From Fluviicola sp. (GTDB lineage Bacteria; Bacteroidota; Bacteroidia; Flavobacteriales_D; Crocinitomicaceae): DNA of 64,000 nt. The stretch spans positions 1 to 64,000 of the forward strand of contig JADLGD010000103.1 in assembly GCA_020849495.1 (NCBI GenBank). Direction: 5' to 3'. The position numbers were made by a program, and so were the translations under genes. Each line of letters opens with the position of its first letter. Positions within the stretch are counted from its first letter, which is position 1. Below, piece after piece: positions 16,259-46,539 of the stretch. Below the pieces are notes generated by a model. It saw only the letters and a program-made list of their open reading frames with translations. It ran no database searches and was not told the DNA's origin.

Positions 16259-16663
16259 ATGAGACCCATTTTTGCAGTTATCATCGGAGTCGTGTTAGGC
16301 GGTTTTTTCATTGCTTTAGGCGAAATGATTTTGAAATATATGATCCCGACCTTAAATGCTCCGAGCAATCTCGATTCATCAAACATGCAAGTGTTCGTCG
16401 ATCAAATTCCACTTATAGCTAAAATTGGAATTGTCATCAATTGGGGAGTTGCTGGTTTCGTCGGTGCTACAGTTACAACTTTCATCCAAGGCAGAACACA
16501 TTACAAGCCCATGCTAGTAACCATTGGCATTTTACAATTATTGACCTACATGAACATGATGATTCTTTGGGGTCATCCACTTTGGATGTGGGGGGCAGCT
16601 ACTTTTATTTATATCATTGTTGGTTTCATTAGTTATTTTTTAATTCGTAAAAAAAGTGTCTAA
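16259..16663 (+). CDS. Hypothetical four-TM membrane protein
   Basis: 134 aa, several hydrophobic segments; intact between well-supported genes. Confidence 0.65.
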   Translation: MRPIFAVIIGVVLGGFFIALGEMILKYMIPTLNAPSNLDSSNMQVFVDQIPLIAKIGIVINWGVAGFVGATVTTFIQGRTHYKPMLVTIGILQLLTYMNMMILWGHPLWMWGAATFIYIIVGFISYFLIRKKSV

Positions 16664-17267
16664 TTACAGTGACTCAATTTCCAATTACATTGATAAATCT
16701 GCTCCTTTTGCCCAAACGATATTAACGGAGCTTCGAGCAGTTATTCATACTTTTTGTCCTGAAGTAATTGAAACGTTAAAATGGGGAATGCCTCATTTTA
16801 CTTATCGAAATGCAAATCTTTGTCATTTTGCAGCTTTCAAACAACATTGTGCTTTAGGATTTTGGCTACATACTGAGATGAAAGATGACTTAGACATTTT
16901 TAAGCGTGAGCAAGAAGGTGGAATGGGCTCTTTAGGAAAGCTTCAACAATTGAGTGATTTACCTTCCAAAGAAGCACTTGGTTCCTACATAATTGAGGCC
17001 ATGCAGTTGATTGAAAAAGGAGTGAAACTGAAAAAGAAACCGAGCAAACAACAAGCAGAATTCATTGTTCCCGATGTACTTTTAAAAGCTTTTGAAACAT
17101 TTCCAGTGGCTAAATCCGCTTTCGACAACTTTAGCCCATCCCACAAAAGGGAATACATCAATTGGCTAAATGAAGCAAAAACGGAAGCCACCTTACTGAG
17201 ACGATTGGATAAAACCATTGCGAATTTGTTGGAAAACAAATCCATGTTACAGCATTATCAGAAATAA
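16656..17267 (+). CDS. YdeI/DUF1801-type protein (GTG start)
   Basis: LKWGMPHFTYRNANLCHFAAFKQHCALGFW; C-terminal SPSHKREYINWLNEAKTEATLLRRLDKTIANL. Confidence 0.8.
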   Translation: MSNYSDSISNYIDKSAPFAQTILTELRAVIHTFCPEVIETLKWGMPHFTYRNANLCHFAAFKQHCALGFWLHTEMKDDLDIFKREQEGGMGSLGKLQQLSDLPSKEALGSYIIEAMQLIEKGVKLKKKPSKQQAEFIVPDVLLKAFETFPVAKSAFDNFSPSHKREYINWLNEAKTEATLLRRLDKTIANLLENKSMLQHYQK

Positions 17268-44061: not shown

Positions 44062-44661
44062 ATGGCATTCGAATTACCAAAATTACCATACGCTTACGAT
44101 GCGTTAGAGCCACATATCGATGCTCGCACAATGGAAATCCACCATACAAAACATCATCAAGCGTACATTACCAATTTGAACAATGCAATTGCAGGAACAG
44201 AATTGGAAGGAAAAACAATTGAAGAGATTTTGCAAAATTGCAAAGACAAACCAGCAGTTCGCAATAACGGTGGTGGTTTTTGGAACCACAACTTGTTTTG
44301 GGAAGTGATGGCACCAAATGCTGGAGGTACTCCAACTGGTGAATTAGCGCAAGCAATCAACGATGCATTCGGTACGTTTGAACATTTCAAAGAAGAATTT
44401 GCGAAAGCAGGTGCTACTCGTTTTGGTTCAGGATGGGCTTGGTTGTGTGTTGAAGGTGGAAAATTAGTTGTTTGTTCTACTGCAAACCAAGACAATCCGT
44501 TAATGGGTGAAGGTTGCAAAGGAGCTCCAATCTTAGCAATGGACGTTTGGGAACATGCTTATTACTTGCATTACCAAAACCGCAGACCAGATTATATCAA
44601 CGCATTCTTCAATGTCATCAATTGGGATGTTGTTGCTAAAAAATATGCTGCTGCGAAATAA
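44062..44661 (+). CDS. Superoxide dismutase (Fe/Mn)
   Basis: [70 protein letters not shown]. Confidence 0.97.
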
Positions 44662-44679: not shown

Positions 44680-44715
44680 AAAAGTCGGAAGAGTTATCTT
44701 TCGACTTTTTTTTTG
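44680..44715 (+). terminator. Rho-independent terminator
   Basis: AAAGTCGGAAGA-gtta-TCTTTCGACTTTTTTTTT. Confidence 0.85.
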
Positions 44716-45243: not shown

Positions 45244-45360
45244 CTAAATTTAGCCACCATTCTAAGGATTTAACGAGTGATTTTAAGACAGAACTTCTAA
45301 ATTAATGAATTTATGAGTTGCTTAAAAAAACTACTTTTACTTACAATAAATGTTTTTATC

Positions 45361-46005
45361 ATGAACCCAGAACTCGATTTCTTTTTTCAGGCAACAAAAA
45401 AATGGCAACAAGAAATGAACCTTTTGCGCAAAATTGTTTTGGATTGTCAACTCCAAGAAGAGAAAAAATGGGGAGTTCCTTGCTATACATTACAATCGAA
45501 AAACATTTTGATCATTCATGATTTCAAAGAATACTGTGCACTCAACTTTTTCAAAGGCGCATTGCTCAGCAATGCAGATGGTATTTTGACACAACCTACT
45601 GAAAATTCGCAAGCAGCTCGTCAGATCAGAATTACATCTGTGCAACAAATCATGGAATGGGAATCAACTATCCGCGCTACGATTTTTGAAGCCATCGAGA
45701 TTGAAAAAGCAGGATTGCAAGTTCCTTTAAAACCAGTTGAAGCTTTTGAAATGCCTGAAGAATTTCAAGCGAAACTAAACCAATCACCTGCGCTTAACAC
45801 AGCATTTTACGCACTAACTCCAGGTCGACAAAAAGCGTATTTATTGCACTTCTCCGAAGCTAAACAAGCTAAAACACGAGAAGCACGTATTGAAAAATAC
45901 ACCCAACGCATTTTGGATGGAAAAGGATTTACGGATTGTGTTTGTGGCTTATCGAAACGCATGCCTGGTTGCGATGGATCGCATAAATTTTTGAAAGAAA
46001 GATGA
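45361..46005 (+). CDS. YdeI/DUF1801-type protein with C-terminal CDGSH iron-sulfur motif
   Basis: KKWGVPCYTLQSKNILIIHDFKEYCALNFFKGALL; TPGRQKAYLLHFSEAKQAKTREARIEKYTQRILDGKGFTDCVCGLSKRMPGCDGSHKFL. Start trimmed from 45313. Confidence 0.85.
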   Translation: MNPELDFFFQATKKWQQEMNLLRKIVLDCQLQEEKKWGVPCYTLQSKNILIIHDFKEYCALNFFKGALLSNADGILTQPTENSQAARQIRITSVQQIMEWESTIRATIFEAIEIEKAGLQVPLKPVEAFEMPEEFQAKLNQSPALNTAFYALTPGRQKAYLLHFSEAKQAKTREARIEKYTQRILDGKGFTDCVCGLSKRMPGCDGSHKFLKER

Positions 46006-46161: not shown

Positions 46162-46187
46162 TTTTAATCTCGGTAATATTGCAATAT
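46162..46187. repeat. 26-bp direct repeat copy 1, containing a perfect 22-bp palindrome at 46171-46192
   Basis: ttttaatctCGGTAATATTGCAATATTACCG; CGGTAATATTGCAATATTACCG is its own reverse complement. Confidence 0.85.
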
Positions 46188-46295
46188 TACCGAAAACATT
46201 TAACCTTCTTAAAACTGCCTTTGTTCCCAAGTTTCACCCACCCAATAATACCACTCTAATAAAAAAAAACAAGCTTAAAACACTATATATCAAAA

Positions 46296-46321
46296 TTTTA
46301 ATCTCGGTAATATTGCAATAT
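46296..46321. repeat. 26-bp direct repeat copy 2
   Basis: ttttaatctcggtaatattgcaatat identical to copy 1 over 26 bp; the right arm of the palindrome is degraded (cacctg instead of taccg). Confidence 0.85.
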
Positions 46322-46539
46322 CACCTGTTTTTTTGTAGTTGCTAGATGTGATTTTCAAAAACTAAAACATCCGTCAATAAATTTTTATTCAAGCTATTTT
46401 TGAATTCATTTTTAGAAAATCAACAATCCAAAAATGAAGTCTTTACAATTCATCCATCAAATTCAACAGTTCACCATTTTTTATTGCGCATCATTTTAGA
46501 GAAGTCAGTAATCTTGTACCACAAAAGATAAACTGTTGT

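Follow-up and report, generated by a model that had tools for sequence, protein, structure and literature searches.

A CDGSH-type motif as a C-terminal tail on a DUF1801/OmdA protein of Fluviicola sp., with a possible role in iron or Fe-S handling

The stretch of DNA analyzed here, referred to as the window, comprises 64,000 nucleotides of contig JADLGD010000103.1 from a Fluviicola sp. assembly (GCA_020849495.1), and the gene of interest encodes a two-domain body followed by a short tail bearing a CDGSH motif. The features of the locus are as follows.

45361..46005, + strand: whole gene, DUF1801 + OmdA + CDGSH tail, 214 aa (open reading frame, Pfam, start of relatives)
45403..45696, + strand: DUF1801 domain, residues 15-112, YdhG/frataxin-like alpha/beta fold (Pfam E 1.4e-17; AF2 pLDDT about 85-97; best PDB fold match 2oc6, YdhG)
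45745..45921, + strand: OmdA domain, residues 129-187, all-helical (Pfam E 5.6e-20; AF2 helices 133-141, 143-151, 154-164 and 170-185)
45907..45909, + strand: Arg183, end of the OmdA domain's last helix (49/50 tailed proteins have Arg or Lys here, whereas untailed ones mostly have Gln)
45934..45936, + strand: Asp192, the final residue in most untailed relatives and the Phi1 position, which is hydrophobic in other CDGSH motifs
45937..45984, + strand: CDGSH motif, residues 193-208, with predicted ligands Cys193, Cys195, Cys204 and His208
45985..46002, + strand: residues 209-214, the variable C-terminus, in which Lys209 is conserved and the rest is little constrained (pN/pS 0.67 from residue 210 onward)
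16656..17267, + strand: DUF1801 + OmdA paralogue without a tail, also in the window (24% identical)
44062-44661, + strand (as the tailed gene): gene for an Fe/Mn superoxide dismutase, lying some 0.7 kb upstream

The start of the gene is likely at 45361, because relatives begin MNPKVD; an alternative upstream ATG at 45313 would yield 230 aa. Both body domains are well supported by Pfam (DUF1801, 64.3 bits vs. a cut-off of 27.2; OmdA, 71.5 bits vs. 25.6), and the zf-CDGSH score straddles its curated cut-off of 29.5 bits (27.4 bits, E 4e-6, in the protein scan and 30.0 bits in the genome scan), with the profile aligned solely from position 28-32 onward, of 48. Genome-wide, the tail is the sole zf-CDGSH match in the Pfam scan, and Pfam searches of the same genome returned six DUF1801 matches and no CyaY-type frataxin. 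The motif itself, CVCGLSKRMPGCDGSH at 45937-45984 (+), fits C-x-C-x2-[ST]-x3-P-x-C-D-G-[STA]-H exactly and is the single match to this pattern across the window’s six frames, where 1.4e-7 would be expected by chance. A preliminary description of the window had reported such a motif in a YdeI/DUF1801-type protein, and its sequence and position are confirmed. That description rightly placed the motif near the C-terminus but gave HKFL as the final residues, when three more, KER, come after. It was also correct that the paralogue at 16656-17267, which carries both DUF1801 and OmdA, has no such tail.

Conservation of the tail was assessed across 50 distinct tailed relatives, which represent several of the order's families. 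Motif positions C2, C4, P11, C13, D14, G15, S16 and H17 are present in 50/50, so that Cys193, Cys195, Pro202, Cys204, Asp205, Gly206, Ser207 and His208 of the window protein are invariant, and S/T7 (Ser198) is represented by 49 serines and one threonine. Among 82 close pairs, pN/pS was 0.048 for residues 193-209, 0.217 for the body and 0.67 for the residues beyond 209, making the tail the most constrained of the three parts. Conservation in orthologues had been set beforehand as a means of refuting the earlier reading, and the invariance of all four ligands, together with strong purifying selection, upholds the motif on this point. That the tail has no function and is a product of chance or decay might be suggested by its C-terminal position and by the many close relatives that do without it; this is exceedingly improbable, being contradicted by the selection data, by the invariant ligands and by the minute chance expectation for the motif. 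The tail is thus very probably a selected metal-binding element. Its distribution is also considerable: of 399 genomes from the order, at least 83 possess the tailed form (counted by hand from matches extending into the motif), and in a sample of 396 genomes it was found beyond the order, within the phylum, at loci L205, L207 and L209, and at L208 as judged from its match. Among the carriers is a cultivable species, Bizionia echini (L103).

The remainder of a CDGSH domain is a different matter. The residues universal to CDGSH proteins for [2Fe-2S] coordination and structure are C2, C4, S/T7, P11, C13, D14, G15, S/T/A16 and H17, and in every structure compared, all of them dimers or pseudo-dimers, a beta-sandwich is built from hydrophobic residues at Phi1 and Phi12, an N-terminal strand and a proline motif (PMC3174974). 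The window protein and 50/50 relatives carry the full set of ligand and structural residues. Phi1, however, is Asp in 50/50 tailed proteins, and Phi12 is non-hydrophobic in 48/50 (Asn, Gly, Ser, Arg or Thr, with Asn in 38/50; Ala was scored as hydrophobic), whereas the other CDGSH motifs from relatives have hydrophobic residues at Phi1 in 42/42 and at Phi12 in 42/42. The hydrophobic pair that joins the dimer core is therefore missing from the tail. The N-strand and proline motif were likewise not found, with the low confidence of the tail models leaving room for a hidden strand: in both AlphaFold2 models the last OmdA helix (170-185) is followed by coil, and the tail has no strands and a pLDDT of about 46-60 in one model and 34-46 in the other. 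Restricting the alignment to tailed sequences made tail confidence worse. Low values of this kind are to be expected where a metal site is modeled in its apo form and the alignment contains few tailed sequences. Judged by sequence, the tail appears to have kept its metal side intact and lost its dimer side.

An ordinary CDGSH domain that dimerizes in the usual manner, through parts not recognized in the sequence, is conceivable in that phmmer aligns residues 180-209 with the type 6 structure 3tbn, including the strand region (YTQRILDGKG with YPVTVEAGKT). The upstream part of that alignment, however, is found in untailed relatives as well and is predicted to be helical, and together with the polar Phi positions this renders such a domain quite improbable. 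Because the ligand residues are all in place and the two structural features of the dimer are not, the name “CDGSH-motif tail” is preferred here over assignment to a CDGSH domain of types 1-7, none of which is described as fused to DUF1801/OmdA (PMC3174974); in domain composition, too, the protein departs from those types.

The metal likely bound by the tail is a second matter on which alternatives must be weighed. A 3Cys-1His arrangement is a common zinc ligand set too, and the tail could therefore be a structural or regulatory zinc knuckle, holding Zn(II) in a protein without redox chemistry. The lack of the CDGSH-domain parts that normally enclose the cluster would be in keeping with this, as would the description of a co-occurring CxxCxxCC family (see below) as zinc- or iron-chelating. 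Even so, the conserved non-ligand residues S7, P11, D14, G15 and S16 are the universal residues of [2Fe-2S] CDGSH sites (PMC3174974), and a zinc knuckle would not need all of them; we consider it unlikely. A [2Fe-2S] cluster, rather than zinc, is probable. The preliminary description had invoked the redox-active, often labile 2Fe-2S clusters of CDGSH proteins on the strength of the motif. Its core, a likely metal site and probably a [2Fe-2S] one, stands; the simple transfer of known CDGSH properties does not, since the tail is without the upstream beta-strand and the hydrophobic dimer-interface residues, which every other CDGSH motif sampled retains.

Comparison with untailed proteins bears on the history of the tail. 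Tailed relatives end in ...GKGLND-CxCGLSKRMPxCDGSHK, while untailed relatives end in ...GKGLND, with the stop right after the Asp192 equivalent or a few variable residues later, and the majority of relatives are untailed and terminate exactly at Asp192. The differing preference at position 183, in the last OmdA helix, suggests that the body has adapted to the tail. In a tree built without the tail columns the tailed and untailed labels were clustered, and holding the tailed proteins as one clade gave a likelihood better than the free search by 34.5 log units (p-AU 0.875). The simplest account is thus a single split between the two forms, through either gain or loss of the tail. Multiple independent gains were considered, as the first tree suggested five changes, and were rejected because the single-clade tree fits better. 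As a donor of the tail, the C-terminal half of a type 6 CDGSH gene is plausible, because type 6 proteins, like the tailed ones, terminate shortly past their (second) motif. As a separate observation, proteins from seven MAG contigs (L032, L045, L077, L090, L096, L100 and L102) labeled as Kuenenia, Anaerolineaceae, Moraxellaceae, Isosphaeraceae, Acidobacteria, Gammaproteobacteria or Anaerolineae were placed among Bacteroidota sequences in the tree, and some of these contigs may be misbinned or transferred, given that grouping.

The body was earlier held to have no clear biochemical function, a view that no longer holds, as DUF1801 is the YdhG/Fra family, whose frataxin-like fold points to iron or Fe-S handling (PMC4934914). 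The Bacillus subtilis protein YdhG, now called Fra, is an iron-binding protein of frataxin-like fold that interacts with SufS and SufU (PMC4934914, PMC10855754). In a Foldseek search of the PDB with the AF2 model, 2oc6 (B. subtilis YdhG) ranked first (prob 1.00, TM 0.59 by target length, a weak E of 4e-3) and 9t2w, a YdhG-like frataxin of Listeria, ranked third (prob 1.00, modest E-value), placing the body in the YdhG fold. Searching the PDB with a profile made from the alignment gave nothing significant and did not reach YdhG; a search of a viral fold library was similarly without significant matches, and anti-phage defence models gave no match. The acidic ridge on helices 1-2 by which Fra binds iron was considered as possible proof of iron binding and was not supported: residues 2-30 of tailed proteins have about 5 acidic and 4 basic residues, the net charge of helices 1-2 is about -0.8, and no clear ridge could be discerned. 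Because the ridge is not evident, the fold similarity is taken as support for an iron role and not as proof of one. As to the second domain, the description of PF13376 (OmdA) in terms of bacteriocin protection and association with OmpD presumably derives from another protein named YdeI.

Gene neighborhoods differ sharply between the two forms. Untailed loci lie in an ArsR - AHSA1 - DoxX_2 - DUF4256 - DUF1801/OmdA operon in 52-59 of 89 cases, and tailed loci in 0 of 51; many of the 51 have only about 1.5 kb of flank, and those with up to 6 kb agree. The operon with the untailed protein is well conserved across Bacteroidota (e.g., L037:2201-4579 and some 50 similar loci). A comparable operon logic for the tailed form was sought and abandoned, as no neighbor is common to most tailed loci. 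In the window, the superoxide dismutase gene and the tailed gene are probably not co-transcribed, because a terminator-like site (44680-44709) lies between them, and no Fe-S assembly genes were seen among the neighbors of the tailed gene. None of the window’s superoxide dismutase, TonB-type and flavodoxin-like neighbors was seen to recur next to the other tailed genes that were examined. Just 3′ of the tailed gene lies a perfect 20-base palindrome, GGTAATATTGCAATATTACC, with a second copy at one mismatch (sites 46172-46191 and 46306-46325); none would be expected by chance in the window, and the genome holds 19 copies at up to one mismatch, spaced at about 108 bases on contig C207 (five copies) and part of C153.

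These surroundings bear on whether the protein is a sensor of redox, oxygen or Fe-S status, in which an exposed tail cluster would switch the activity of the body. The clusters of CDGSH proteins have been described as labile and redox active (PMC6006223), the untailed form of the body shares its operon with an ArsR-type regulator and with AHSA1, DoxX and DUF4256 genes, and superoxide dismutase is encoded upstream in the window. Tailed loci are nevertheless absent from the ArsR-type operon, the superoxide dismutase neighbor is peculiar to the window among the tailed genes examined, and no output domain was recognized, leaving the sensor a doubtful proposition. The redox or Fe-S sensing role put forward in the preliminary description is therefore not supported as stated, and no result shows sensing. 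The DUF1801 identity of the body speaks for iron or Fe-S handling no less than for sensing, and we regard the case for handling or transfer over sensing as evenly poised.

A candidate partner for such handling is a CxxCxxCC protein of 288 residues (PF03692, YkgJ-type, putatively zinc- or iron-chelating), whose gene adjoins the tailed gene directly upstream in one lineage (L032, L033 and L168) and directly downstream in another family (L120 and L124). An orthologue is encoded in 33 of 83 tailed genomes vs. 15 of 316 others, and in 6 of 104 genomes with only an untailed copy. The association persisted in a within-genus permutation (p = 0.0003), for which strata were tallied by hand and in which genera still share ancestry, and it may thus be due in part to shared ancestry. 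The window’s genome also has the CxxCxxCC gene, interrupted by a contig end. In genome G041, which is without the tailed form, the next gene after the CxxCxxCC gene encodes a stand-alone tandem CDGSH protein, and in G354, probably the same case, the same CDGSH protein is encoded three ORFs from the CxxCxxCC gene. It may be observed that the 288-residue PF03692 protein adjoins CDGSH-bearing genes of two kinds, tailed YdeI and tandem CDGSH (L033:3107-3970, L120:1254-2105, L216:4079-4951).

The best overall explanation, held with middling confidence, is that a bare [2Fe-2S]-type site has been grafted onto a frataxin-fold body and participates in iron or Fe-S handling. The protein would consist of a cytosolic-type frataxin-fold (YdhG/Fra-like DUF1801) plus OmdA body, with a bare 3Cys-1His CDGSH-type loop joined directly after the ancestral terminal Asp192. 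The loop would bind a labile, exposed [2Fe-2S] cluster, held without the usual CDGSH dimer and conceivably steadied by the body, through Arg183, or by a partner protein. Body and tail could then jointly handle iron or Fe-S clusters through cluster uptake, transfer or protection, in some lineages together with the CxxCxxCC (YkgJ-type) metal-binding protein. More tentatively, the tail may be a new kind of CDGSH site, namely a non-dimerizing [2Fe-2S] loop acting as a portable tail at the C-terminus, carried in this case by a frataxin-fold body and working with a CxxCxxCC partner. If true, this portable tail would unite an iron-binding module and a transferable cluster on one chain and would break with the view that CDGSH clusters require a beta-sandwich dimer. 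A single motif that is under strong selection and has no dimer surfaces allows two questions to be put to the test, namely whether 17 residues are enough to form a [2Fe-2S] site and what takes the place of the dimer. The protein likewise offers a concrete way into the common YdeI/OmdA proteins: fusion links one of their lineages to Fe-S chemistry, and the other domain of that lineage has the fold of frataxin, whose bacterial role is still debated.

The DUF1801 + OmdA + CDGSH-tail architecture was not found described in the literature searched, of which coverage was incomplete and in which no paper covered both CDGSH and YdeI and the sole DUF1801 paper concerned the frataxin fold; a domain database may already list the architecture. 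Among known systems, B. subtilis YdhG/Fra (PF08818, PDB 2oc6) shares the DUF1801 domain and is the best solved-structure match of the model; it consists of that domain alone, whereas the window protein adds OmdA and the CDGSH tail and has no evident acidic ridge. The untailed YdeI-like DUF1801 + OmdA proteins of Bacteroidota have the same body, at 55-65% identity and ending at Asp192, but have no tail and in most loci occupy an operon of their own, in which none of the tailed loci lies. Type 6 CISD proteins (MmCISD, PDB 3tbn; human CISD3) share the same 17-position motif and provide the best PDB sequence match, yet the window protein has a single motif, no N-strand and no second module, with Asp at Phi1 and Asn at Phi12. 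Two-part CDGSH proteins resembling types 7 and 5 are encoded as separate genes in many relatives, and mutual exclusion of the tail and stand-alone CDGSH genes, which was also considered, is not supported, as both are present in some genomes. Finally, type 7 (DUF1271/Fer4_19 + CDGSH) and type 5 (CDGSH + glutamate synthase) CISD proteins are similar to the window protein in fusing CDGSH to another domain (PMC3174974) but differ in the partner domain and in keeping a complete, beta-sandwich-forming CDGSH domain.
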